A stretch of 20,457 nt of DNA from a virus: positions 1 to 20,457 of IMG/VR virus record IMGVR_UViG_3300042305_000673; one strand, 5' to 3'. The notes beneath the pieces are model-generated. The model saw nothing but the letters and a program-made list of their open reading frames with translations, was not told the origin of the DNA and ran no database searches. This document shows, one piece after another, positions 56 through 20,457 of this stretch (the first letter of the stretch is position 1; each line of letters begins with the position of its first letter). Made by a program: the position numbers and the translations under genes.

Positions 56-307
56 CTACCACTTTACCTTATTTGCCCAGTACGCCGCCGACATTTTGCC
101 TTTGGCGATGTTCTTTGCGTGGCGAGCTTTGAACGCTTTGTTGCGGGCAGAACCTTCCGGCGACCCCTGAACCCCTTGCTGACCGAACCTGATCAGCTTC
201 ACCTTGTCGCCTTCTTTGGCGAGAACAGCGTGGGACTTTGCGGCGTTGGGGGTTCTTTTCGGTTTGTTGTAGCCAGCGAACTTTTCGCCCCGATACTCGA
301 TAGTCAC
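56..307 (-). CDS. Small basic conserved phage protein (KSHAVLA/LIRFGQQG family)
   Basis: This 83-residue, lysine/arginine-rich protein contains the segments YRGEKFAGYNKPKRTP, KSHAVLAKEGDKVKLIRFGQQG and a C-terminal KGKMSAAYWANKVKW. I recognise these from many marine, cyanobacterial and actinobacterial phages, where the protein has no assigned function. A GTG start is possible at 322, but I chose the GTG at 307: it forms a GTGA overlap with the stop of the upstream 52-residue gene, the same junction used repeatedly in this operon, and it begins the protein (M)TIEYRG as family members do. Being basic and in the virion module, it may bind DNA or coat the capsid interior; that is inference. Confidence 0.85.
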   Translation of the reverse strand: MTIEYRGEKFAGYNKPKRTPNAAKSHAVLAKEGDKVKLIRFGQQGVQGSPEGSARNKAFKARHAKNIAKGKMSAAYWANKVKW

Positions 308-462
308 TGCTTCGCCGCCCACGCATTGTCAACAAGATTCGGGTAGGTGCGACCAGCCTTCTTCGCGCGGGCCTGAGCCATCCGCTTCTGTTCCGCCGTC
401 AACGGGGTGGACTTCTTCTTCGGGTTTTTCGTGTCCCAAAACGGTGTCTGCTTCTTCTTCAC
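304..462 (-). CDS. 52-residue basic phage protein (ends YPNLVDNAWAAKQ)
   Basis: A GTG at 462 opens a 52-codon frame starting KKKQTPFWDTKNPKKKSTPL, continuing with TAEQKRMAQARAKKAGR and ending TYPNLVDNAWAAKQ. Small proteins with a lysine-rich start and a PNLVDN-x-WAA end recur next to the KSHAVLA-type protein in phages; function unknown. The start forms a GTGA overlap with the glycosyltransferase stop (459-461) and the stop forms another GTGA overlap with the next start (307), so the three genes are translationally coupled. An overlapping minus-strand frame at 329-574 is a shadow. Probable DNA-contacting or minor virion protein, by charge and position only. Confidence 0.83.
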   Translation of the reverse strand: MKKKQTPFWDTKNPKKKSTPLTAEQKRMAQARAKKAGRTYPNLVDNAWAAKQ

Positions 463-1550
463 TGATCCTCCAGGGCATCCGCATCTGATAGTACCTGAAA
501 CACGCCCTCAGGGACACGATACGTTGTGCCTGGGACCATCCGATAGTTGTGTTTCCCGATGTCAGCGTTGACACGGCGTTTCACCCTGATGTCCACCTCC
601 ACGTTCGGGGTGACCCACTCAGGGTCGTCCAGCAAGGTGCCGGTCGGGACAGCCTGCAACAACTGTTTCACCGCTTTGCTCCATGTCCAGTTCGAGGTGT
701 ATGCCGCCTGTTTGCGGGCCACCACATTGTTGCGTTCCCGGTTACGGTATGCGTCCAGCATCGCATCCATAACTTCCCCCAAATCGGGTTCGTCCCACAT
801 CCCTGTCGTGTCAGCTCGGGATTTGGCGCATGAGATTTGGTAGGTCGCCAACCCTGCGAACTGGGTTTGCCCAGTCGTCAACGACACAATGTTAGGTACA
901 CCTAACGCGATGGCTTGGAGGGGCATCAACCCGAACCCCTCACCCCGGCTGACCGCCACATAACAATCCGCCTCGTTGAACCACCCCACCTGCTGATCCA
1001 ACGTCATCCACTCTCGATGCAAAAAAATGTTGTTCCCCAACGGTTTCGTCGGGGTGTCACGCGCATGAGGGGCCGCTTTGATGTGCAGTTCCGCGTTATG
1101 TAACTTCAAACGGTTGAACGCTTCAACAACGATGTCCAACCCTTTGCGTCGCCACAACGACCCGCCAGCCGCAAACCTGAACACGTCACCACCGGGTCGT
1201 TCCCGAGGAAACCACACCTTCCGGTCAACCCCCAACGGCACCACCCGCACATCCCCACAAACCTGACCAAACAAGTCGGCATTATGGTCGCATGGGACAA
1301 GCACCTGATCATACTGACCCAACCAATGCCTAAACCTGTCAGGCAACCGGTCCGTTTCCCACATCGTAAACACCACCCGATGCTGCCCCTCAAACCAGCC
1401 TTTGCACACGTTCGGTACAGACATATGGATGTTCACCGAACCATGCCGGTCCAACACCGCCGTCTTCGGAAGAACATCCTTGAACCCGTGGAACATCGCC
1501 CCATAACCAAACCGGGGATCGTCATACCCGGTCCACGACTGGACATTCAC
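459..1550 (-). CDS. GT-B (GT4-like) glycosyltransferase with C-terminal extension
   Basis: The 363-residue protein has the second Rossmann half of retaining GT4-type transferases: VRVVPLGVD (101-109), FRFAAGGSLWRRKGLDIVVEAF (about 124-145) and SRGEGFGLMPLQAIALGVP (201-219), which holds the donor-binding acidic motif (E204 and nearby). The N-terminal half is short, with FTMWETDRLP at about 61-70. Residues from about 310 onward (EWVTPNVEVDIRVKRRVNADIG..., YRMVPGTTYRVPEGVFQVL) do not belong to the transferase fold and resemble a small phage beta-rich virion domain. The GTG start overlaps the upstream stop as GTGA. Phage transferases inside structural operons are known to glycosylate capsid or tail proteins in actinophages, so virion decoration is the likely role; sugar donor and acceptor are unknown. 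Confidence 0.88.
   Translation of the reverse strand: MNVQSWTGYDDPRFGYGAMFHGFKDVLPKTAVLDRHGSVNIHMSVPNVCKGWFEGQHRVVFTMWETDRLPDRFRHWLGQYDQVLVPCDHNADLFGQVCGDVRVVPLGVDRKVWFPRERPGGDVFRFAAGGSLWRRKGLDIVVEAFNRLKLHNAELHIKAAPHARDTPTKPLGNNIFLHREWMTLDQQVGWFNEADCYVAVSRGEGFGLMPLQAIALGVPNIVSLTTGQTQFAGLATYQISCAKSRADTTGMWDEPDLGEVMDAMLDAYRNRERNNVVARKQAAYTSNWTWSKAVKQLLQAVPTGTLLDDPEWVTPNVEVDIRVKRRVNADIGKHNYRMVPGTTYRVPEGVFQVLSDADALEDQ
891..906. repeat. 16-bp palindrome GTTAGG-N4-CCTAAC inside the glycosyltransferase gene
   Basis: GTTAGGTACACCTAAC has 7-base perfect arms around a 2-base centre. It has the same GTTAGG-N4-CCTAAC layout as the element at 16444-16459. It encodes the conserved ALGVPN stretch and uses a TTA leucine codon, uncommon in this GC-rich sequence. 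It may be coincidence. Confidence 0.4.
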
Positions 1551-1846
1551 TCAGCAACACCACGCGCCACAAGACGCTCCACATCAACACGGCCCTCAAC
1601 CTGGGCAACCGTCTCAGCCCTTGCCTCCAACGCCGCAGCACCGTCAATCCCGCGAGGCTGAACCCCGTTCTCCCGCAACCGTTTATAGGCAGGCATGTCC
1701 TTATCCCAGTTCTTCGCTGTCCGGTTCGTCGCCTCAACCTGCGCCCCACGGGTCGTCGTCGAGTTAGCACCGAAAGAAATCCCGGCAACCCGACACCCGA
1801 AGCACCCTTCCACATCCAGCGACGGATGCGTCTCTGCGTGTTTCAC
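1547..1846 (-). CDS. Conserved actinophage virion-module protein (HPSLDVEGCFGC type)
   Basis: The 99-residue protein carries HPSLDVEGCFGCRVAGISFG near its start, with a CFGC cysteine pair, followed by a charged helical part containing AYKRLRENGVQPRGIDGAAALE. I recognise this arrangement from small hypothetical proteins next to capsid genes of actinobacteriophages; no function is known. One CxxC and no second clear cysteine pair argue against a complete zinc finger unless it dimerises or uses a histidine. The GTG start at 1846 overlaps the upstream stop as GTGA and its own stop overlaps the glycosyltransferase start as GTGA. Confidence 0.85.
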   Translation of the reverse strand: MKHAETHPSLDVEGCFGCRVAGISFGANSTTTRGAQVEATNRTAKNWDKDMPAYKRLRENGVQPRGIDGAAALEARAETVAQVEGRVDVERLVARGVAE

Positions 1847-2094
1847 GTTATGTAATCCTCGTATCCAGCTTCAATAAGGTCCGCTTCCTCAGCGGCAGTC
1901 AACTCATGGATATGGCCCCCATGATAAATCTTCTCAACCGTGGACATGTCCCCCGGCTGGTTCTCCGTGAACGATCCATCAGTCAACTTGTACACGTTTC
2001 TGCCCCTCGGGAAGTTCTTCAAATACCTGAAGATGCCTTCCGTGCCGTCATCCCAAGACACATACAAATCTGTCGGGGGACGAAACGTAGCCAT
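1843..2094 (-). CDS. Small conserved virion-module protein (MATFRPPTD...GRNVYKLTDG)
   Basis: The 83-residue protein reads MATFRPPTDLYVSWDD, then FRYLKNFPRGRNVYKLTDGSFTENQPGD, then VEKIYHGGHIHELTAAEEADLIEAGYEDYIT. The combination of PRGRNVY, an LTDG/FTENQP segment, a YHGGH motif and a C-terminal AEEADLIEAGY is known to me from hypothetical proteins downstream of capsid genes in actinophages, where a head-completion or tail-adaptor role is often suspected. Translation starts at ATG 2094, 15 bases after the U-tract of the terminator that follows the capsid gene, with no strong ribosome binding site. It is the first gene after that terminator and so probably depends on read-through. Confidence 0.85.
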   Translation of the reverse strand: MATFRPPTDLYVSWDDGTEGIFRYLKNFPRGRNVYKLTDGSFTENQPGDMSTVEKIYHGGHIHELTAAEEADLIEAGYEDYIT

Positions 2095-2108: not shown

Positions 2109-2132
2109 AAAACCCCCCGCTTGCGCGGGGGG
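2109..2132 (-). terminator. Intrinsic terminator after the major capsid gene
   Basis: The eight-base arms CCCCCCGC and GCGGGGGG face each other across a TTGC loop (2113-2132) and are followed, on the minus strand, by TTTT (2112-2109). It sits 38 bases past the capsid stop. Such a partial terminator lets the capsid gene be expressed far above the downstream small genes. Confidence 0.85.
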
Positions 2133-2170: not shown

Positions 2171-3151
2171 TTAGGCGTTCGTGCCGATGCTCGACGCGGA
2201 CTCGATGCGGCGCAGAGCCTCCTGACGGAACACCCCGTACCCGACGAAGTGCTTCCAACCCACCGGGCGGAAACGCTTCAGGAGGTCCGTGACCGTCCCG
2301 TACACGATGGTCGGCTGCGAACCGTACTCACCGCCGAGGCTGATGCCCTTAGCGAGAGCCTGACGGCCCATGATGAGGGTGCCGTACACGTCGATGGTGC
2401 CAGCCGAACCCGAGTTGTCCGACGCATTGGCGAACAGCGGGGCGCGGGGGGACTCCATGAAGCGGACACCCTCGAACATGCCGATTTCACCGTTGTAGAT
2501 GCCCTCGGGGTTGACGTAGTTCGCGGGGGTACGCCACGCGGCGGCATCCGTCGCGGAACGGAAGTCGTAGGAGACATCCGGGTGGATGAAACCGACGTAG
2601 GAACCACCGATGGTCGGCACGTTCGCACCACGGAGCTGAGCAACCACGCGGCGGACATCGTTCGCTGCGAGGGTGTCATCCGAGTTGATGGTCGTGCGGC
2701 TCGACGGGTCCGTCGCACCACCGGTCGCGTAGATCACGTTGCTTCCGGCCTGGAGGACCGAACGGCAGATGGTGTCGATGCTGATACCGGCGTTGTAGCC
2801 GACCGCGTTCGCAGCCACCGGGTCAACCGGGAGGAACGAGGTGGCCCGCAGCTTGGCGGTCGTGACGGTTGCGTTGCCGTACTCCTTCAGGGTGACGGAC
2901 ACCTGGCTGTCGCTCATCGCAACAGGGGTGACATCCTCAGCCTCGCCCAGCTCCGTGGTGGCGGCAGCGAGGTCTGCGAAGATGGTGAACGTGATGGTCG
3001 CACCGGGGTTGGTGGCGTTGGTTGCCTGGACATCTGCGAACTGGTCGTAGTACATCTCGGGGCGGAGGGCGAAGTACGCGAGCTTCTCGAACGCGGTCTG
3101 ATCCACGCTGAGGTTGCTGGTACCCGTTTCGGCGGCGTAGTAGTCAGCCAT
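2171..3151 (-). CDS. Major capsid protein, N4-gp56 family (HK97 fold)
   Basis: The 326-residue protein begins MADYYAAETGTSNLSVDQTAF and contains features of the N4-gp56 capsid family: FEKLAYFALRPEMYYDQFAD (about 21-40), an ATITFTIFADL beta strand, the TLKEYGNATVTT segment, a central YVGFIHPDVSYDFR stretch, GEIGMFEGVRFMESPRAP, and C-terminal DLLKRFRPVGWKHFVGYGV. It self-assembles into the icosahedral shell with the scaffold encoded just upstream (30-base gap). A strong ribosome binding site, AAAGGA, precedes the ATG, fitting high expression, and a terminator follows. Length is in the usual range. No delta-domain or protease is fused, consistent with assembly on a separate scaffold. Confidence 0.93.
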   Translation of the reverse strand: MADYYAAETGTSNLSVDQTAFEKLAYFALRPEMYYDQFADVQATNATNPGATITFTIFADLAAATTELGEAEDVTPVAMSDSQVSVTLKEYGNATVTTAKLRATSFLPVDPVAANAVGYNAGISIDTICRSVLQAGSNVIYATGGATDPSSRTTINSDDTLAANDVRRVVAQLRGANVPTIGGSYVGFIHPDVSYDFRSATDAAAWRTPANYVNPEGIYNGEIGMFEGVRFMESPRAPLFANASDNSGSAGTIDVYGTLIMGRQALAKGISLGGEYGSQPTIVYGTVTDLLKRFRPVGWKHFVGYGVFRQEALRRIESASSIGTNA

Positions 3152-6871: not shown

Positions 6872-9800
6872 TCAATCCTCGATTTCCGCAGCCAACAGTC
6901 TGTCATAAATACGGGCAAACTCGGGTGTCTCCGCCACAATCGCCTGCGCGTGACCAATTAGCCAGTCCCGCAACGGGGCCGCAGCGTTAGAAGCCAAACT
7001 GGAATACCCAGCCGATGCCGCCGACTGCAACGCCTGATCACGCTTCCGCAGATACAGGGCAGTCGCCTGAGCCACATCATTGTCAGCAAGGGAACCCTCC
7101 TGAACCATGCGTGTCAGTTCCTCAATCTTGGCGGGGAACTCACCAGGGTTGAACTCTGCAACAACCGGAAAACCAGGATATTCCTTGTTCAGTTTTTGCC
7201 GCCACCTGCGGAGCCATGCCTTCTGTTCAGCGGACGGAGACGCAGGAAGCTTGTCGCGCATAGCCCGATACTGGGATGCTGCCGCCCTGTATTGGGCTGC
7301 TTCCACGATTTCACGGTCGGTGAGACGGCGGCGTTTCCCGCTGGTCACCTGACGTGACCACACCTCGAACGAGAAGTTGTCGCCACCTGGGGCCATGAAC
7401 CCGGCAACATTCGGGTACTTCTTCAGCAGGTCACCGTTGCGGCGTTCCCAGTCTCCGAACTGTTCGGTGGCTTCCAGCCCGCCCGCAACAGATTCGGTTT
7501 TGTTTGACAGATACAGCAGGGCATCGTTGCCGTAGATGCGGAGAAACTCGGACACGGCGGTGTCGTAGTTGTCTGCCTGCAACTTTTGGAACTCTTTTAC
7601 GAGCTGAGTGGCGTACATGTCGCCGTCTTTGGTGGTGATACGGAACTCGGGGCTGGGGGCGGTAGGACCGAAGAACTGGCCCAATGCCCGCATACTGGTG
7701 ATAATGCGGGCTTTCCATCGTGCGTCGGCGTACAGTTGTTCCTGATCGTTGAAATCCGCAAGGTCGTACTCACCGGAGGTGGACAACGCTCGAAGGGTTT
7801 CAATATAGGTGTTTCCGTACACGGTTCCAAGGTTCATCGTGTTTTGTTCCCAAGCTTCGTTCAGGCGGGACACCCATTTCGGGACCAAACCCAATGTGGT
7901 TTTCTCACCATATGGGAGCAGGATTCCCCTGACGAAATCAATTGAAGGTGTGTCCGGCAACAGTTTCGATGCGGCAATCTGCCCGACCGGGCCGACAGAC
8001 GGGATGACACCAAGACCGATAGAGATACGCTTCACGGGTGCCTGCAACGGGGTGTCCAACCCTGTCAGCAGCTGGGAGAACCAACCTGAAAGCGGGAAGT
8101 TGAACGAGTATTCCCCGGTGGTGGCATCCTTGTAGAAGAATCCTTCGCCGTCGCCGTCGGGATCAAACTTTCGTGCGCCGTCAAAGATGAGTTGTGCGCG
8201 GCGGATACGGGTGGGGTCTTCGATGGTTGCGCGGGCGTAGGTGCCGAGAACTTCGCGCCATGCAGCACCGAACGGGATGACGACACGGAGGATGTCTTCC
8301 AGGTTGGAACGCTCTGTTGCGTTGTACAGAAGGTTTTTGGTTTCGCGGAGAGCCACCGCTTTTGCGTAAGCATCCAGTTCGTCCACGGTCCCGGTCGCAT
8401 CCGACACGGAATCAGCAACGGTCTTCAGTTTTTCAAGGACATCCTTGCCGCCGACATAACGGGCCGCAGGAATACCTTCCTGTTCGGCAGAAGCCAACAC
8501 CCTCGACAGAATCATCTGCGCCTGGTCAGGTGCCAACTCGTCGGCGGTAGCGAGAATCTCACGGAAATAGTATTGGCGGAACACCGGCGACTTCTCAAGA
8601 ATCTGTGTGCCACGCCCGTAAAGACCGACGAAGAACTTGTCAACGAAATAGTCGGCTGCGGCACCAGCCTTACCGAACCGGCGTGACGCAACCTGTCCCG
8701 CGCCTCGTTCAGCTCGTTTGACGAACTGGGCAAGTTGACCTTGGTTGCCTTTGATGGTGAGAAGTTCACGCAGTTCGGCAGAACCATAGGATTCGCCCAG
8801 CACCTCAGGGGCGAACTGTGCGACAGGAATGTCAATAGCAACATCATTGAACACAGGCTGAATGTCCAGCACAACATCAGTCATCACTTCACCCGTGAAC
8901 GGATCAATCTGATTGCCTGCCCTGTCAAACCGGTTGACAATGACCCCCTGCTTGTCGTTGCCCAAATCAACAATCGTCCCGGGGCGGGTGTCCGTAATGT
9001 TGGCGAGGTCATCCGCGTTTATGCGTTCAATCGGTGCAATAACCCGCACCCCGTTCTCGCTGGTGATAAGCGGGACACGGTTGTATGCGGCAACAACCTG
9101 CAAATCCTTGTCGCCACGGGTGATGGTGCTGGTTTTCATGCGAGACAACTTGCTGACCCAGCCAGCAACAAAATCTTCTAAAGCATTGTCGCCCAACTGG
9201 ATAACGGCACCAACATTGCCGTTTTCGGGGTCACCAACCTTCAAACCAAGCTTGGCGTAACGGTTCAACGACTCAAGAATCTTGGCCTGTTCCGGCTGAT
9301 TCAACCACTGGATAATGAGTTCGGTTTGGCGTTCCTCAGTCAAACCCATCAAATCAAACCGCGAAATCTGACCATTTACCGCGTCGGTATGAATCTGTGC
9401 AAGGTTGTCAACATAGCCGATACGGTGCGCGTTTGGATCAACCCCCTGGTTCACTTCAGTCCAGTTGCCGTTACGAAACTGGTTTATCTTCGCGTCAACA
9501 GAACGATCAAGATTCTTGTATGTGTCAAACGTGAGAGCATCAACCATCTCGCGCTGGTTCTCGCCCCACTCCTCCACGTTGGTACGAAGAACATCCTCAA
9601 AGTCAATGCCCCTGATGTCCTCAAAACCCTTCTTGTTCATCACCCACAGAATGAAATCCTGCGGATGGCGGAACACACCCGACATCCCGTTCATCGCAAT
9701 ACGGGTCTGAGCATCAATCATGTTACGCATGATGTAACCGCCGGTAGCCAACGCCAACGGCTTCCACAGTTCGTTCTGCGCCGACTCAATCAGAGCGTTC

Positions 9801-11524
9801 ACCTTCTCAACAGGCTGCTTCGTGCTGACCCTTGACAAGATGCCAGCAAACTTGCGGACTTCCCTGAAATCAGGGAGAACCGCAACCTCATCAGCCAGTT
9901 CGTTCAACGCCCCTGGTCCCGTCAAAACAAGACGATCAAGTGCGTCCTGCGGCAAATCATCAATGACTTCCTGCGGAAAATACTTCAGAAGGCTTTGAAC
10001 CAAACCACCGTCGTCAGCCCAACCGATTTCGTCCACCGTGAACACCCTCGACTTGGCAAGTTCAGCGTTCTTTGCAGCAACCATCCGCTTCCACACATCA
10101 TCAACATTCGCACCGGTACGCCCAGCGGCCTTCGTAGCAATGACACGCAAAGCATTATCAAACGCCGCTTGGACAGCAGGACGAGACGCACCAGGATCAG
10201 ACAACGAATACGCCCGAACAACCTGCCCCATCACATTCTTGTATTCGTCGCTATCAGGCCCGAACCCGATACCCTTCATGTAGTTCGAATAGTTCTTGAT
10301 TGCCTGCGCCTTGTCAATACCTGACCCGTTGATAACAACCTGGTTCTTCGGCACCTGACTGAAAAACCGGTTGTTGCGGACATTACGGAACAACGGGACA
10401 CGCTCAGCTTTTTCGTCAAGCCACGCCGAGGTGGCGGTAGCACCGCGAATCTCGCGGACATCCTTCGGAAGCAGAATCTCATCCGGTGTCCCCTGCAACC
10501 TGCTGGAAGCCTCCCCGAGCAAACCCTGAACCTTCAGACCGTCATCAGCTTTGGCGAACTCCCGCGCAATCTGAGGGGAAATGTTGTAATCAAACTTTTC
10601 CAGCAGAGACAAAACTTTTTCTTCGTCGGTCAGGTCAGCGTTCTTGGCGATGTCCACAATTTGCCCCGTCAAACGGACAGCCCTGTTGTCGGAAGTGACC
10701 CACTTGCCGAACTTTGTTCCCTCAAAAGCAATCTGTTCAGCAGACCCCAACCCTGCCTCGCCCTTAGCCAAAGCACGGGCTGCAGTCAACGCATCAGCAC
10801 CAACCAAACCGGGGATTGTTGCCCGAGCCGTTCGGGCCGCAGCAATAGGCTTCCCTGCGAGGGTGGTCGGGTCTGCGCCGATAGCCACCGCCGCATCAAC
10901 AAACCCTGACAGCACGTTGTACGGCTTCGAGCCGGGGGTGAACGCTAGTTGTGCCGCACCACGCCCGATAGTCCACGCATGATTGTTGATCGTGCCACGG
11001 AACTTGCGGGCGCGTTCAGCCTGCTTCTCAGCCGCTTCGCCACCAATAAAGAAACCTTCGCCAGCCTGAGACGAGTTCGAGATGAGGGTGCCGAGGTTCG
11101 TGGACTTGAACCAGCCATCCATACCAGCAGGATCATTCGGGGAGAATATTTCTGCGCCGACGTTCTGCGCCAAATCAGGAAGCAACTGCAAACCAGCAAA
11201 AGTCCAGCGGGTTGCCGCCTTGAAATTGCCGTACACATTCCTGGAGAACCAGTTGCCGTCATCACGTTGCGGGTCGTTGTCGCGCACATACTTGATTGCC
11301 GCAGCCTTCTTGGATGCCTCAACAGTTTGGTCAGACACCCCGGCCTTCGCCATCGACAAAATAACCGCAGGCGGAATGTACGGTGCAGACCGGTAAATCT
11401 CTGCGATACGAGAAGACACCTCAGGTCGGGCAGACTTCTTCAGTCGTTCAATCTCCGCAACAACATTGACAGCCTGCTCGTTTGATGATTCCTCGTTGAC
11501 AGGATCAAACGCCGAAAAAGGCAT
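6872..11524 (-). CDS. Giant internal virion / DNA-ejection protein, 1550 aa
   Basis: This 1550-residue protein is by far the largest gene. It starts MPFSAFDPVNEESSNEQAVN and is mostly helical, with hydrophobic stretches such as ATRWTFAGLQLLPDLAQNV (about 104-122) and LWKPLALATGGYIMRNMI (about 618-635) that could insert into a membrane. A motif around 1060-1095, LLYNATERSNLEDILRVVIPF then GAAWREVLGTYAR, recurs in large phage proteins of this type. C-terminal parts (SGWFSQLL, LPYGEKTTLGLVPKWVSRLN) fit a pore-forming or wall-spanning role. No transglycosylase or protease motif was found by eye. Position between portal and capsid plus size suggests a protein ejected to build a DNA channel, comparable in role to T7 gp16, with no sequence claim. 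It shares TGATG with the upstream stop. Confidence 0.8.
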   Translation of the reverse strand: MPFSAFDPVNEESSNEQAVNVVAEIERLKKSARPEVSSRIAEIYRSAPYIPPAVILSMAKAGVSDQTVEASKKAAAIKYVRDNDPQRDDGNWFSRNVYGNFKAATRWTFAGLQLLPDLAQNVGAEIFSPNDPAGMDGWFKSTNLGTLISNSSQAGEGFFIGGEAAEKQAERARKFRGTINNHAWTIGRGAAQLAFTPGSKPYNVLSGFVDAAVAIGADPTTLAGKPIAAARTARATIPGLVGADALTAARALAKGEAGLGSAEQIAFEGTKFGKWVTSDNRAVRLTGQIVDIAKNADLTDEEKVLSLLEKFDYNISPQIAREFAKADDGLKVQGLLGEASSRLQGTPDEILLPKDVREIRGATATSAWLDEKAERVPLFRNVRNNRFFSQVPKNQVVINGSGIDKAQAIKNYSNYMKGIGFGPDSDEYKNVMGQVVRAYSLSDPGASRPAVQAAFDNALRVIATKAAGRTGANVDDVWKRMVAAKNAELAKSRVFTVDEIGWADDGGLVQSLLKYFPQEVIDDLPQDALDRLVLTGPGALNELADEVAVLPDFREVRKFAGILSRVSTKQPVEKVNALIESAQNELWKPLALATGGYIMRNMIDAQTRIAMNGMSGVFRHPQDFILWVMNKKGFEDIRGIDFEDVLRTNVEEWGENQREMVDALTFDTYKNLDRSVDAKINQFRNGNWTEVNQGVDPNAHRIGYVDNLAQIHTDAVNGQISRFDLMGLTEERQTELIIQWLNQPEQAKILESLNRYAKLGLKVGDPENGNVGAVIQLGDNALEDFVAGWVSKLSRMKTSTITRGDKDLQVVAAYNRVPLITSENGVRVIAPIERINADDLANITDTRPGTIVDLGNDKQGVIVNRFDRAGNQIDPFTGEVMTDVVLDIQPVFNDVAIDIPVAQFAPEVLGESYGSAELRELLTIKGNQGQLAQFVKRAERGAGQVASRRFGKAGAAADYFVDKFFVGLYGRGTQILEKSPVFRQYYFREILATADELAPDQAQMILSRVLASAEQEGIPAARYVGGKDVLEKLKTVADSVSDATGTVDELDAYAKAVALRETKNLLYNATERSNLEDILRVVIPFGAAWREVLGTYARATIEDPTRIRRAQLIFDGARKFDPDGDGEGFFYKDATTGEYSFNFPLSGWFSQLLTGLDTPLQAPVKRISIGLGVIPSVGPVGQIAASKLLPDTPSIDFVRGILLPYGEKTTLGLVPKWVSRLNEAWEQNTMNLGTVYGNTYIETLRALSTSGEYDLADFNDQEQLYADARWKARIITSMRALGQFFGPTAPSPEFRITTKDGDMYATQLVKEFQKLQADNYDTAVSEFLRIYGNDALLYLSNKTESVAGGLEATEQFGDWERRNGDLLKKYPNVAGFMAPGGDNFSFEVWSRQVTSGKRRRLTDREIVEAAQYRAAASQYRAMRDKLPASPSAEQKAWLRRWRQKLNKEYPGFPVVAEFNPGEFPAKIEELTRMVQEGSLADNDVAQATALYLRKRDQALQSAASAGYSSLASNAAAPLRDWLIGHAQAIVAETPEFARIYDRLLAAEIED

Positions 11525-11918: not shown

Positions 11919-13736
11919 TCAACCCAACCTGTTAGCAAGACTCAACACACCACCCGGCGAAGTCGGCTGCTGCGCCGATGCGGCACCACCACCACCGAGC
12001 TGGGCGAGCAGACCTTCCATCCCGGCAGGCGGAGCCTCAACGGGCTGTTCAGCACCCATCCCTGGCATCGCCAAACCAGGCATCGTCTCCGGTGAACCCA
12101 CCTCAGCAGGGGTGGCCTGTCGTTCCTGTGCGCGTTTCTGTGCAGCCATGATCGCCTCAGGCAGAGACATCTTGTTTGACTGGACTTGTTCTGCGATGAA
12201 CGCCAAATCGTCGGGCTGGTACGGGCCGTTCGGATCTGCGGCTTGTGCCTGAATAGACGACAACAGTGCCGCCTCAATACCTTCCGCGACGATACGGTCC
12301 TTTTCCAGTTCGGGGTCCGTAATCAGCGGGTCTGCCTCACGGGCCGACTCCTTCGACATCAGACCGGTGCCGAGACGCTGACCCAACCCGACAATCAAGC
12401 TGTTCACATCGGAACCCGACGCAGAGTACGACACATAATGGAAATCGGTTTCCCACAGTTTGTTCGGCGTGTAATCCTTCACGCCTCCCTTCATGCCGGG
12501 AATGAAAAAAGACTTCGGTGTGTTACCCCAATACGTCTTTTCCATGTGGATAGCAATCTTGTCTTCCTCGACACGGGCGGCAGCCATGATGTCCTGCGCC
12601 TCTTGGATACGGAAATCAACTGTTGCGGACAGAATTGACTCGCCACGGCGACCGGTACGGATGTTCGTGCCGCTTTCACCACCGAACTCGGCGGGGATGG
12701 CACCCTCCAAACGCTCCTGGCGTTCCAACCTGTCCAACGCGGTGTCAGTTTTGTAGCCCGGCTGGGACTGCAACTGCTGAATGTCGCCACCCTTGACGAC
12801 ACCAAGCTGACCTGTCTTGCCGTCAGCAATCTGAATGATTTCAGGGTTCTCACCGGGACGCGACACGAGGTACTCGTCAGGGAAAATCCCTCGCTCAATA
12901 GCGATTTCGGTGAGTGCCTGAAGTCTTGCACGGGTGTAATACATGCCGAGCAGCCCATCGAACTGGCCTTTCGGCTTGTCAAGCGTGATACGGGACGGGA
13001 TAACCACAAGTGGCATACCGCAACGGTTCGGGACACGCGACAACTCCACCGCAGGACGACCCATATACATCGAACCGGACAGCGGATCACGGTCACGTTC
13101 ATAACCAAGAACAACCAGCACGACTTCCATGTCGTCGACATACTCCAAAACAGTGAACATGTCGTCAGGGGCGGGGTCACCAACCCGCAACACACCGTTC
13201 AGGAACCCATAGTTACGCATCAACCACTGATAGCTGCGGCTGTAAGTAAAAATCACGTCGTCGGGGACAGGGTTTGACTCGTCAACGACAGGTGCGGCAA
13301 ACGTGTCAAGCGGGTTCCGCAGATGCCACTCCACCAGCCGCTTATCAAAGTTCGGTTTCAGGAACACCGGTGCGGATGAGTACGCAAAAAAGTTGCGGGC
13401 GCGTCGACGGTCCTTCTGTCCCATCCGGTTCTGATCCCAAATCGACAGCATGGCCCGCTTCCTGTCACGGGCGAACTGCATCGAACGGTCCTGTCCTTCA
13501 CGCAACGCAGGGAAATACGGTGTCGGCTGTGTCGAGGTGACACGCATCGCCATCTGATCAAGCCCCTGGACGAACAGGTTCGCCACTGAGGATCGTGCGG
13601 TGCGGTCAAGTTCGGACAATGGTACGACCACTTCGCCGTTTGCGAGGCGACGCACTTCGCGCATCTGCTGGAGAACAGGGCCGAGGGTCGTGTGCCGGTC
13701 ACGGTACAGGGCAACGATTTCCTCAACTGTCTTCAT
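11919..13736 (-). CDS. Portal protein
   Basis: The 605-residue protein begins MKTVEEIVALYRDRHTTLGP and follows the terminase gene, the standard place for portal. Portal-like features are an N-terminal helical region with SSVANLFVQGLDQMAMRVTS, a mixed core with RNPLDTFAAPVVDESNPVPD and LEYVDDMEVVLVVLGY, the LGMYYTRARLQALTEIAIERG helix, the GESGTNIRTGRRGESIL segment before the long stem helices, and a Met/Pro/Gly-rich C-terminus that often faces the head interior. It forms the dodecameric vertex through which terminase packages DNA. A good AAAGGTG site lies just before the ATG. Length (about 600) suits podovirus-type portals. Confidence 0.87.
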   Translation of the reverse strand: MKTVEEIVALYRDRHTTLGPVLQQMREVRRLANGEVVVPLSELDRTARSSVANLFVQGLDQMAMRVTSTQPTPYFPALREGQDRSMQFARDRKRAMLSIWDQNRMGQKDRRRARNFFAYSSAPVFLKPNFDKRLVEWHLRNPLDTFAAPVVDESNPVPDDVIFTYSRSYQWLMRNYGFLNGVLRVGDPAPDDMFTVLEYVDDMEVVLVVLGYERDRDPLSGSMYMGRPAVELSRVPNRCGMPLVVIPSRITLDKPKGQFDGLLGMYYTRARLQALTEIAIERGIFPDEYLVSRPGENPEIIQIADGKTGQLGVVKGGDIQQLQSQPGYKTDTALDRLERQERLEGAIPAEFGGESGTNIRTGRRGESILSATVDFRIQEAQDIMAAARVEEDKIAIHMEKTYWGNTPKSFFIPGMKGGVKDYTPNKLWETDFHYVSYSASGSDVNSLIVGLGQRLGTGLMSKESAREADPLITDPELEKDRIVAEGIEAALLSSIQAQAADPNGPYQPDDLAFIAEQVQSNKMSLPEAIMAAQKRAQERQATPAEVGSPETMPGLAMPGMGAEQPVEAPPAGMEGLLAQLGGGGAASAQQPTSPGGVLSLANRLG

Positions 13737-13779: not shown

Positions 13780-15759
13780 TCAACTGGTCAACATCCACGA
13801 AGGTCGCCACTGGCGCGGAGGGCGTTTCGCCTGAGTCAAATTAGGGATGTTCAAAACCGCCATCCACAAAGCCATCACGATGTCCGTCCCGTTCTTCTTG
13901 TCGCGGGACCATTTCGTCAGCTCCTCCAAAGCCGCCAACGTCTTCCAGTTGCCCCTCATCGACGGGAACCGCATAGCCCCCGACCGGATCACAGGCGGCA
14001 ACAAAGCCTCCACCCCCAGGTTCTCATCCACCTTGTTGCGGGTCGTGGTGTGCGGAACCACATTCACCCGGTTCGCGGCCTGCCATTTCCGCACAAAATC
14101 ATGTTGCAACAAAAACCGTTGGGCCGCGTTGATTTCAACCACCCAATGACTAATCGGATACCCCATATCGTATGACCGTTCCTGCCATTCGTTCATCAAA
14201 CCCGAATACTCGCCAGTCATCGTGTCGTACCCCAACACCTCCTCAGCGGACAGTTTGACCCGTTCCACATCAACCACATGGTAAAGCTTCAAATCAGGCT
14301 GGTAAATGATCCACACAAACGCCCAAAACATTGTCGGGCTGGGGTCAACCGCCACAAGAGAAATCCACGGGTGCGCCAAACCCTCAGGGATGTACCCCGG
14401 TTGGCGTTCATTGTCGATACAACCCGGGTAGTGAACCCCATCCATGCCGGTGCCACCAGTCATCCAGGTGCGGTCAATAAGACGGGAATCCAAATCAAGG
14501 TCTTCCTGCTGGTACACCACGTTGAACACATCAGGTTTCGAGTAGCGAATAAACGACAGGTCTTTCCACGGGAGCCGTTTCGGGTCCAGCAGCGGGCCAT
14601 CAGGATACGGCAAAGCGTTGAACGCTCGGGAAGCTTTCCCCGTATCCAACTCCTCGTAATACGCTTTGTAGATGATGTGGCGATACTTCTTCTGACGGAC
14701 CGGTTGCCCCTCCTGCACATCCTCAGGAGATTCCACATCCGACCCGTCATAGTTGATGTCGTCCTCAATGTCATACGTTTCTTTGGCGAGGCAATGCGCG
14801 TACAGGTCACCTGACCCCAACCGCTGACCGACCACCGCCAACAGGCCACCCGGATCGCAGCGGGCCTCCGCCACATTGTCCCACCGTTCCAACAGTTTGT
14901 CCCTAGCAACAGACTCACGGGCGTTATCAGGGGAAGCCACATCGTCAAACAAGCAAAGGTCGGCGCGGTGACCAATGAACTCGGCTTCGATACCGTAAGC
15001 CCTGACAGTTGGTTCCTTGTTGTCCAACCCATTCCCATCCAACTGTTCAACAACAAACTCGTCGGCTCGCCACAACGCCCCTTTGTCGGTCGGGCGGAAC
15101 CTGCCGTAATCCAACGCCAAACACCCCTCCGCGTTCACCGCAATCCCCTTAGCCACCATCATCGGATCAGGCTGAATCGGTTGCACACGCTCCAAAGTTT
15201 CACGAATACGACGCGAATACAACTTCGCCATATTCTGCGACACCGACCCAATCATCACACGAATACGACGGTTACGGACAATCGCCCACACCGCAACATC
15301 ATGAAACAAAGTCGACTTACCCGCACCCGGAGGCACGTTCAGTACAACAAACTCTTTCTCCTCCGACTCCAACAACTCAATCAGCTGATACGCGGCCTCA
15401 ACCTGCCACGGAGACGGCACCCTCCCCAAATAGTGTCGCCTGAAGAAATCAAAATCCTCCAACCCCCTCCGCGCCTCATCACACAACAAGTCAACCGGCA
15501 CCACCGACGGCAAATCCGCAGCATCCAACGCCAACTGAAAATCATGCTGCTGACGACCCCCCGACCCCTTACCGCGATGCGCCCGATGCTCCGCCTCCTC
15601 ACGTTGAGCAGCCAACAACTTCGCTTTCTTCACCCAATTCGAACCCGTATTGTAATGAACCCCAGCCTGCCTCGACGCATCCCTGATCGTATGCCCAGCA
15701 GTCACCAACGCAAAAAACTTTGCTTTGTCAGCAACAGAAACAGCTCGCTTAGTACCCAT
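13780..15759 (-). CDS. Terminase large subunit with N-terminal helix-turn-helix
   Basis: The 659-residue packaging motor has a Walker A VPPGAGKST (142-150), Walker B DLCLFDDV (267-274), a coupling motif VVGQRLGSGD (309-318), and a RNase H-like nuclease with D472 (VAVDPSPT), E542 (VVEIN) and D626 (GTDIVMAL). Residues 1-50 (VSVADKAKFFALV then TIRDASRQAGVHYNTGSNWV) form a transposase-type helix-turn-helix, like a small-terminase DNA-recognition domain; no separate small terminase gene is seen here. The gene is the first of the leftward operon. No clear ribosome binding site precedes ATG 15759, so it could be leaderless or use an unusual leader. Confidence 0.93.
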   Translation of the reverse strand: MGTKRAVSVADKAKFFALVTAGHTIRDASRQAGVHYNTGSNWVKKAKLLAAQREEAEHRAHRGKGSGGRQQHDFQLALDAADLPSVVPVDLLCDEARRGLEDFDFFRRHYLGRVPSPWQVEAAYQLIELLESEEKEFVVLNVPPGAGKSTLFHDVAVWAIVRNRRIRVMIGSVSQNMAKLYSRRIRETLERVQPIQPDPMMVAKGIAVNAEGCLALDYGRFRPTDKGALWRADEFVVEQLDGNGLDNKEPTVRAYGIEAEFIGHRADLCLFDDVASPDNARESVARDKLLERWDNVAEARCDPGGLLAVVGQRLGSGDLYAHCLAKETYDIEDDINYDGSDVESPEDVQEGQPVRQKKYRHIIYKAYYEELDTGKASRAFNALPYPDGPLLDPKRLPWKDLSFIRYSKPDVFNVVYQQEDLDLDSRLIDRTWMTGGTGMDGVHYPGCIDNERQPGYIPEGLAHPWISLVAVDPSPTMFWAFVWIIYQPDLKLYHVVDVERVKLSAEEVLGYDTMTGEYSGLMNEWQERSYDMGYPISHWVVEINAAQRFLLQHDFVRKWQAANRVNVVPHTTTRNKVDENLGVEALLPPVIRSGAMRFPSMRGNWKTLAALEELTKWSRDKKNGTDIVMALWMAVLNIPNLTQAKRPPRQWRPSWMLTS

Positions 15760-17023: not shown

Positions 17024-17317
17024 ATGGGCAGGACCTACGAAAAGGTCATGGATGCCGCGCGGGAACGTGGCTACGAGGCGGGCCGGATGGCGGCCCGCAA
17101 CGGAGAAAGGCGTATCGATCCACTGTCGGGCGAGTGGGCCGGCGAGTCGATGCCGGAGCTTATCGGGGACCTTGTGGATGAGGCGGCGACGATTCACGGC
17201 GGGGACCCGGACGCGGACTGTTGGGATGACGTGGCGAACGAATACGAAACAGGCTATGAGGACGGGCAACGGGCAGAATGGGGAGACACTCTCGCGGATT
17301 CTCTCGCAGCGGACTGA
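17024..17317 (+). CDS. Conserved actinophage accessory protein (DPLSGEWA type), 97 aa
   Basis: The acidic 97-residue protein begins MGRTYEKVMDAARERGYEAG. It has two similar motifs, GYEAGRMAA (17-25) and GYEDGQRAEW near the C-terminus, on either side of a conserved-looking core DPLSGEWAGESMPELIGDLV. I associate the core DPLSGEWA and the YExGY pattern with small actinophage proteins of unknown function; this is recall, not a search. The duplicated motif suggests a helical protein built from two halves. Strong GAAAGGGG ribosome binding site seven bases before the ATG. No catalytic residues are evident. Confidence 0.82.
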   Translation: MGRTYEKVMDAARERGYEAGRMAARNGERRIDPLSGEWAGESMPELIGDLVDEAATIHGGDPDADCWDDVANEYETGYEDGQRAEWGDTLADSLAAD

Positions 17318-17404
17318 ATGCCGAAACAGTCCTGCTAGGGACTGTCTCGCGGAGATGGCCTCCCGCGACTGATGAGGCAGGCCACCAATGAAAGGGTAAA
17401 CATA
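17318..17404 (+). other. Intergenic hairpin between cluster genes 2 and 3
   Basis: ACAGTCC and GGACTGT form a perfect 7-bp stem with a 6-base loop (17326-17345). A second pairing TGGCCT/AGGCCA (17356-17361 with 17379-17384) has a long loop and is weaker. GAAAGGG (17390-17396) then precedes ATG 17405. The layout (hairpins, then start-associated motif, then gene) repeats that of the preceding gap. Confidence 0.55.
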
Positions 17405-17659
17405 ATGGCAACGACGGGACGGGCAGGGGATGAGGCCCCGCCGAACGGGATACCGCGGCCTAGCGCGGTGGAACTTGCCGCGGCAGAAATGCAAGCGGCG
17501 GCACGGACGTTCGACCGGGCGTATCATGCGGGCGCGGATCGTGGCACGCTTGCCGTATTGCGGGCGGCGCACAACCGTGCGCGCGGTGAGTGGCTGCGGG
17601 CGCGTGCGGCGGCAGGCGACACGCAAGCGGCGGTGCTAGTGGCGTTCGGGGCGGCGTAG
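17405..17659 (+). CDS. Small Ala/Arg-rich helical protein, 84 aa, unknown
   Basis: The protein begins MATTGRAGDEAPPNGIPRPS and continues as a long predicted helix with Ala, Arg and Glu (VELAAAEMQAAARTFDRAYH, LAVLRAAHNRARGEWLRARAAAG). No domain is recognised. The composition is strongly biased and could reflect high GC as much as function. The ATG at 17405 has GAAAGGG upstream; an earlier in-frame start at 17372 lies in the hairpin region without such a site. Its TAG stop shares a base with the GTG of the next gene. Possibly a small coiled-coil protein interacting with DNA or a partner. Confidence 0.7.
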   Translation: MATTGRAGDEAPPNGIPRPSAVELAAAEMQAAARTFDRAYHAGADRGTLAVLRAAHNRARGEWLRARAAAGDTQAAVLVAFGAA

Positions 17660-19959: not shown

Positions 19960-20132
19960 GTCTTTTTCTTTCTTGGGGTGATGATCCCGCGTCGTCGTGC
20001 CTGGATGCGTTCAGCTTCGGCGTTGTGTTCGTTCCGCCGGACATGACACATACAGGGGCATGAGCGGTGGATGTCTTCGGGCCACAGCGTTAGGGCGCGT
20101 TCAACGGTTCCGCAGTGGTCACATTCCAGCAT
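19956..20132 (-). CDS. Small Cys-rich protein between methyltransferase and WhiB-like genes
   Basis: The 58-residue protein reads MLECDHCGTVERALTLWPED, then IHRSCPCMCHVRRNEHNAEA and a basic tail ending RRRGIITPRKKKT. C4-x2-C7 and the C25-x-C27-x-C29-H30 cluster suggest a zinc finger, and the basic tail suggests nucleic-acid binding. The ATG at 20132 overlaps the end of the methyltransferase by 14 bases; earlier in-frame starts (20195, 20222) would overlap it much more and add non-conserved-looking sequence, so I prefer 20132. The stop overlaps the WhiB-like start (ATGA). Function unknown; start moderately certain. Confidence 0.7.
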   Translation of the reverse strand: MLECDHCGTVERALTLWPEDIHRSCPCMCHVRRNEHNAEAERIQARRRGIITPRKKKT

Positions 20133-20457
20133 CGGAACGCCGTTCAGCTTCAAGCTGGTCAAGGTAGTGGTCCATGAACGAGCGTGGTTCAGCATCGGGA
20201 CGGCATCGCATGATGGCTTCACCGATCCATTGTGCGACCGGGGAGGCGACCCCGTTGCCGCACATTTTGTAGCGGTTGGTGTCTGAGACGGGGCCGTTGG
20301 TGCCGACAGCGGTGTGATTATCGGGCCATCCCATTAGCCGTTCACATTCGAGTGGGGTGAGGCGGCGTACCTGCATTGTTGGTTCCTCTTGGTCGTCGGT
20401 GACTGCAATGTCAAACTGGAATCTTCCGAGACAAGCGGGCCTTTGCCCCCACCGGGT
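20119..20457 (-). CDS. Cytosine-C5 DNA methyltransferase, C-terminal part (partial, right edge)
   Basis: The frame stays open to the window edge, and 112 residues are visible. It contains the C-terminal motifs of m5C methyltransferases: VRRLTPLECERLMGWPDNHT (motif IX region) and RYKMCGNGVASPVAQWIGEA (motif X, with GN-x-V). The catalytic PC motif IV and ENV motif VI would lie beyond the edge. The preceding residues FDIAVTDDQEEPTMQ continue the protein, so the ATG at 20376 is internal. Such genes in phages protect DNA from host restriction. The stop overlaps the small Cys-rich gene, and the WhiB-like gene follows: one leftward operon. Confidence 0.9.
   Translation of the reverse strand, partial: TRWGQRPACLGRFQFDIAVTDDQEEPTMQVRRLTPLECERLMGWPDNHTAVGTNGPVSDTNRYKMCGNGVASPVAQWIGEAIMRCRPDAEPRSFMDHYLDQLEAERRSDAGM

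Follow-up and report, generated by a model that had tools for sequence, protein, structure and literature searches.

A phage family-4 glycosyltransferase with a fixed C-terminal module of possible docking function, encoded beside the capsid gene

Several phages are known to modify their own particles with sugars. Glycosylation by phages of their own capsid and tail-tube proteins is described in PMC12363180, which cites Freeman 2023. A first-pass annotation of the DNA studied here had likewise pointed to actinophages that act on their own virion proteins. For the mycobacteriophages Che8 (gp110), Corndog (gp38) and Myrna, capsid or tail-tube glycosylation by phage-coded glycosyltransferases (GTs) has been reported. 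As a rule, the annotation of a phage GT encoded close to structural genes names no acceptor. In bacteria, the Clostridioides difficile enzyme SgtA, a GT-A domain with TPR, is described as adding GlcNAc to Thr in the GPT collagen repeats of the adjoining BclA3 (PMC7157674). Full-length gpFI of phage lambda is described as a packaging chaperone that is bound to the gpE lattice of the prohead (PMC4856287).

Here we describe a GT gene from a virus sequence in IMG/VR (record IMGVR_UViG_3300042305_000673, positions 1 to 20,457); this whole stretch of 20,457 nucleotides is called the window. The gene and the parts of its product are as follows.

459 to 1550, minus strand: open reading frame of the GT-B family-4 glycosyltransferase, 363 amino acids, GTG start
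636 to 1550, minus strand: GT-B core, residues 1 to 305, with the motif RGEGFGLMPLQ at residues 202 to 212
603 to 635, minus strand: linker, approximately residues 301 to 316 (the coordinates correspond to 306 to 316), with P302, G304 and L307 invariant
462 to 602, minus strand: C-terminal beta4-alpha module, residues 317 to 363

The best explanation of these features, to which we assign a probability of roughly 45% and which depends in part on predicted structures, is that the GT carries a docking module and acts on a virion component encoded in the same operon.

Three Pfam families match the reading frame above their cut-offs and place the enzyme in family 4, namely Glyco_trans_1_4 (40.6 bits, cut-off 27), Glycos_transf_1 (33.1 bits, cut-off 26.4) and GT4-conflict (PF20706; 39.8 versus 26 bits). 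The surroundings are not those of a defence or conflict locus: the gene lies in a virion operon, and PADLOC returned no match for the GT. All three Pfam matches end by residue 297, the match to PHROG 2170 ("glycosyltransferase") stops at residue 300, and in an AlphaFold2 model of the full chain (mean pLDDT 89.5, pTM 0.85, from an alignment of 16 non-redundant relatives) the last core element is a helix at 290 to 300, with the core ending at about residue 305. The first-pass annotation had placed the end of the GT-B core at about residue 300, and these boundaries agree with it. Its count of about 55 additional residues outside the fold is likewise borne out, if slightly low (about 58 with the linker); it named no strand for the gene, which lies on the minus strand. 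Residues 1 to 305 of the predicted model match solved GT-B enzymes with Z scores of 22-25 (MshA, BshA, GlgM and others), and the comparison with MshA (Z 25.4, rmsd 3.0, 286 residues aligned) indicates a GT-B fold.

More than 200 relatives of the GT were found in IMG/VR (201 confirmed, 80 kept). Two patterns from the core, run against 84,980 prokaryote genomes, found none. Core residues K136 and E204, the GYG loop and the MWET motif are invariant in all 16 non-redundant members. Retaining GT-B enzymes of family 4 carry an EX7E motif; at this position the first Glu is kept in 16 of 16 members, and the second is replaced by Gln in all 16, as it is in three of four GTs from isolated phages. Because of this Gln, activity of the enzyme cannot be assumed.

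The C-terminal module is modelled with confidence. In the full-length AlphaFold2 model, residues 317-361 have a pLDDT of about 93 and form strands at 318-323, 327-331, 334-338 and 343-347 followed by a helix at 348-356; the same fold is predicted, with pLDDT 87.5, when the module is modelled alone. The module is present in all 82 complete fetched relatives with more than 45% identity (several of them from one contig). In a set of 115 GT reading frames, comprising close relatives and a capsid-guided set with the window included and some contigs fetched twice, it is present in 113; a contig end truncates the remaining two, so that every complete frame (113/113) carries it. Two scans of IMG/VR with module alignments yielded 84 loci and 82 module reading frames, of which 81 are the end of this GT and one is a frame-broken remnant; two of the 84 loci (L212 and L213) are partial matches with no module row. 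The module is absent from the GTs of four isolated actinophages (4/4 checked), and alignments to solved GT-B structures end by model residue 313 in all 50 matches listed. Since all complete frames carry the module, the scans find it on the GT in 81 of 82 frames and the four isolate enzymes lack it, we conclude that it is real, a fixed and clade-specific component of a single phage enzyme and, within the reach of these searches, phage-specific. The 50 structures and the absence of relatives from the prokaryote genomes also answer whether the extension might be a regular element of family-4 enzymes: it is not.

Sequence evolution within the module indicates constraint, with pN (0.37) well below pS (0.76, a value near saturation). 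It nonetheless varies more than the core, with a mean pairwise identity of 46% versus 63% among the 16 non-redundant members. This difference bears on an alternative account, in which the module is intrinsic to the enzyme, stabilising the two-domain GT-B core or driving oligomerisation, and has no targeting role. Such a role would fit the observation that the module never occurs apart from a GT core (81 of 82 frames, the other being the broken copy, and 113 of 113), the correlation of 0.65 between pairwise identities of module and core, and the whole-chain pTM of 0.85, which suggests that the module has a defined position in the model. However, an element packed against the core would not be expected to be the less conserved part, and all four related phage GTs checked share the short core but lack the module. 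We therefore regard a purely intrinsic role as doubtful.

Modelled with AlphaFold and searched with Foldseek, as the first-pass annotation suggested, the extension proves to be a confidently predicted beta4-alpha module whose fold resembles those of small phage proteins. After its own family, the viral fold matches at ranks 1-15 (probability 1.00) are small uncharacterised phage proteins, and DUF7210 proteins rank lower. In Thermus phage P74-26, the gene for a predicted fold-mate of the DUF7210 type immediately follows that for the capsid; the protein was recognised by its length of 74 amino acids, its position and a Pfam match. By sequence, DUF7210 was undetected in the module, both with Pfam across 16 members and with PF23843 across five contigs carrying the GT. 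The first PDB row from Foldseek is the C-terminal domain of lambda gpFI (2lsm), a weak match (E 0.059, TMq 0.69). With VIA, the module scores Z 4.5 against this domain and Z 4.6 against Bacillus subtilis YqbF (2hjq; rmsd 2.0 over 42 residues), all values being below 8, and among the matches listed GINS and primase domains score higher; the gpFI and YqbF matches are thus leads, not homology.

The same domain standing alone in other phages, for which the annotation had also proposed a search, was sought by sequence and none was found. The module has no sequence match in Pfam, PHROG or the PDB, and no stand-alone copy occurs in 86 loci plus the window. Twenty complete records, those of P74-26, FlowerPower, Patelgo, WhereRU and DanielleIgnace among them, also contain none; the module profile matched eight of the 20, always inside open frames of GT length. 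A phage collection gave chance-level rows only, and two direct scans of IMG/VR found no stand-alone module, these scans being based on short patterns whose reach extends to near relatives only. A likeness to the Y-x-G-G-H module of the adjoining 83-residue gene and of fibre-like proteins, first raised by weak phrog_8987 matches, was rejected (hhalign probability 0.4%).

The surroundings of the GT gene in the window are those of a virion operon.

304 to 462, minus strand: gene for 52 amino acids (phrog_34011), with a 4-nt overlap at the GT stop
1547 to 1846, minus strand: gene for 99 amino acids (phrog_24600), with a 4-nt overlap at the GT start
1843 to 2094, minus strand: gene for 83 amino acids (phrog_23524), with a C-terminal YGGH-type module
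2109 to 2132, minus strand: terminator-like hairpin that follows the capsid gene, GC-rich and with a T run
2171 to 3151, minus strand: major capsid protein (Phage_capsid_3, phrog_1357), upstream of the GT
11919 to 13736, minus strand: portal protein (phrog_104)
13780 to 15759, minus strand: terminase large subunit (phrog_38)

The capsid gene upstream, the 4-nt overlaps on both sides and the fibre genes found downstream of the GT in relatives, where the GT sits between capsid and fibre genes, all uphold the initial view that the enzyme belongs to the virion operon. The hairpin behind the capsid gene was missed by a consensus terminator scan, because its T run has only four T, and was found by direct folding; similar hairpins follow the capsid gene in each of the 11 further loci that were folded. 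It suggests that the genes downstream are probably made in smaller amounts.

Several other features of these genomes can be recorded here. The YGGH-type module also ends longer fibre-like proteins in relatives (for example, L131:5603-6637). A virion-operon protein of 1550 amino acids (6872-11524, minus strand) has no Pfam or PHROG match. A type II hammerhead ribozyme (Rfam RF02276, 49.5 bits, E 1.2e-7) occupies 17319-17386 on the plus strand, spanning the junction of the plus-strand reading frames 17052-17372 and 17372-17659, and the C-terminal part of a C5-cytosine methyltransferase lies at the right edge of the window (20119-20457, minus strand). Two related loci (L006 and L007:3753-5807) encode a protein of 684 amino acids in which a distant family-4 GT follows another N-terminal region, which may resemble a heptosyltransferase; this protein lacks the C-terminal module.

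Among the 18 long relatives searched, 14 have a WhiB match over the cut-off, and in a control set of 14 the only match was in Corynebacterium. The relatives are therefore assigned to actinobacterial hosts, as actinophages. The isolates with the most similar capsid proteins infect Streptomyces, FlowerPower (about 40% identity) among them. No GT is annotated in a 25-kb stretch of FlowerPower, and the module profile finds nothing in its whole record. Masking of the particle from antibodies, one benefit originally envisaged, fits environmental actinophages poorly, and the masking idea as a whole, host factors included, found no support. On the capsid tree, the GT has been gained or lost at least seven times; the phages can thus do without it, and the acceptor, too, may be non-essential.

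Operon position also bears on two targets other than virion proteins. Pyle is said to have reported in 2024 that phage GTs glycosylate hypermodified DNA. If the GT modified the phage's own hypermodified DNA in this way, to evade restriction, it would match what the authors of the freshwater actinophages E7 and F5 propose for their GTs. Yet the thymidylate synthase family is represented in none of 14 long contigs, ThyX exceeds the cut-off in none of the 14 (one match is sub-threshold) and the gene is placed among head and fibre genes. The lack of thymidylate-synthase-type genes over the cut-off makes a DNA target less likely, and what little room it retains comes from the methyltransferase fragment at the edge of the window; we consider it improbable. 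Changing the host surface so as to block superinfection is a common role of phage GTs, as described in PMC10202952 and PMC7029224. In a late virion block, such a change would presumably be of little use by then, and a hydropathy scan found no long hydrophobic or membrane segment in the GT (maximum 19-residue mean 1.53). Of the readings discussed here, we rate this one very improbable.

A further candidate acceptor is the collagen-like fibre downstream, to which the GT might add glycans, or whose glycans it might extend, with Thr of GPT repeats as acceptor as in BclA3. In the close clade, the association looks strict: wherever at least 749 nt of DNA follow the GT, a collagen-like fibre is encoded 0.36-1.14 kb away (75/75 loci). 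It dissolves in the wider capsid family. Of 80 loci there, 32 extend 4 kb or more beyond the capsid gene; of these, 13 carry both GT and fibre, nine the GT only, three the fibre only and seven neither. In addition, the GT co-occurs with Gln-rich fibres and is absent alongside some Thr-rich ones, and a different enzyme tracks the Thr-rich fibres (see below). The fibre was consequently dropped as the substrate, given that enzyme and fibre each occur alone and that Gln-rich fibres accompany the GT, and we view it as quite improbable. Because GT and fibre are decoupled, the acceptor should be common to phages with and without the fibre.

The enzyme that does follow the fibre is a GT2 encoded further downstream in collagen-bearing relatives. 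In 21 loci that extend 6 kb or more beyond the capsid gene, it is present in 10 of 10 with a collagen-like fibre and in none of 11 without. Two types, matched to the Gly-X-Y composition of the fibre (L005:9914-10954, L110, L092, L125 and others), can be distinguished over 67 distinct fibre loci, in 36 of which no GT2 was found in the sequence covered. Type A, a GT2 with weak TPR matches and weak matches to the peptide glycosyltransferases GmaR and SunS, occurs only with Thr-rich Gly-X-Y repeats (27/27), and type B only with Gln-rich Gly-X-Y repeats (4/4). The GT2 type switches three times on the capsid tree, and the fibre switches along in three of three cases; the p value is 0.25, as three pairs cannot reach significance. 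O-glycosylation of the fibre by the GT2-TPR enzyme, in the manner of SgtA, would be a testable reading. A literature search found no report of a link between GT2 and collagen fibres in phages.

For the GT with its module, action on a virion component thus remains our preferred explanation. In this scheme, small quantities of a GT-B family-4 enzyme would be made late in infection. Docking would be the task of the C-terminal beta4-alpha module, which would bind the acceptor protein and keep the enzyme attached to it while the core transfers a sugar from a nucleotide donor. The acceptor would most likely be a component of the virion from the same operon that is common to phages with and without collagen-like fibres, candidates being the capsid, an accessory head protein or a tail protein; both this target and any benefit to the phage are inferences. 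The docking idea, which is plausible, draws on the fold likeness to small phage proteins and, weakly, to the gpFI C-terminal domain, on the location of gpFI on the prohead lattice and on gene position.

Evidence for the scheme includes the predicted GT-B fold shared with MshA and BshA, the invariant core residues, the lack of a hydrophobic segment or a PADLOC match, and the presence in the relatives' operon of a GT2-TPR enzyme with weak matches to GmaR and SunS. The gains and losses of the GT, the weak gpFI and YqbF fold scores, the lack of a DUF7210 sequence match in the module, the Gln in EX7E and the absence of mycobacteriophage matches count against it. A more specific version, which we think rather unlikely, is that a GT captured a domain of the gpFI C-terminal type that docks on the capsid lattice, so that the enzyme would ride on proheads or finished particles and glycosylate the virion in place. 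The literature searched does not describe such an enzyme-on-capsid design for phage GTs. Because the module is kept in every complete member fetched, it also offers a handle, as it can be expressed alone as bait for the acceptor.

How the enzyme relates to described systems can now be stated. The Streptomyces phage GTs Patelgo gp19 and gp20 and WhereRU gp38 (PHROG 2170) share its family-4 core with a short N-terminal domain, at 22-29% identity among the tblastn matches listed, and have the same Gln at the EX7E position. However, they end at the equivalent of window residue 302-307, without the module, and they adjoin ribonucleotide reductase and endolysin genes, whereas the window GT sits by the capsid gene. 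Arthrobacter phage DanielleIgnace gp21 lies, like the window GT, between the major capsid gene and tail genes, but has a canonical EX7E and lacks the module. Homology to the Che8, Corndog and Myrna enzymes was not detected, with no Mycobacterium phages among 140 matching phage records (tblastn). The gpFI C-terminal domain, YqbF and DUF7210 have a small beta-plus-helix fold that may resemble that of the module, with weak scores; they differ in that no sequence homology was found and, as far as seen, none is fused to a glycosyltransferase. SgtA provides a precedent for the GT2-TPR enzyme encoded nearby in relatives, and its GT-A and TPR architecture is unlike that of the window's GT-B enzyme. 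The comparison also tells apart two enzymes of a single operon, a family-4 GT whose tail resembles a docking piece and a GT2-TPR that is like SgtA and goes with the Thr-rich collagen fibres.
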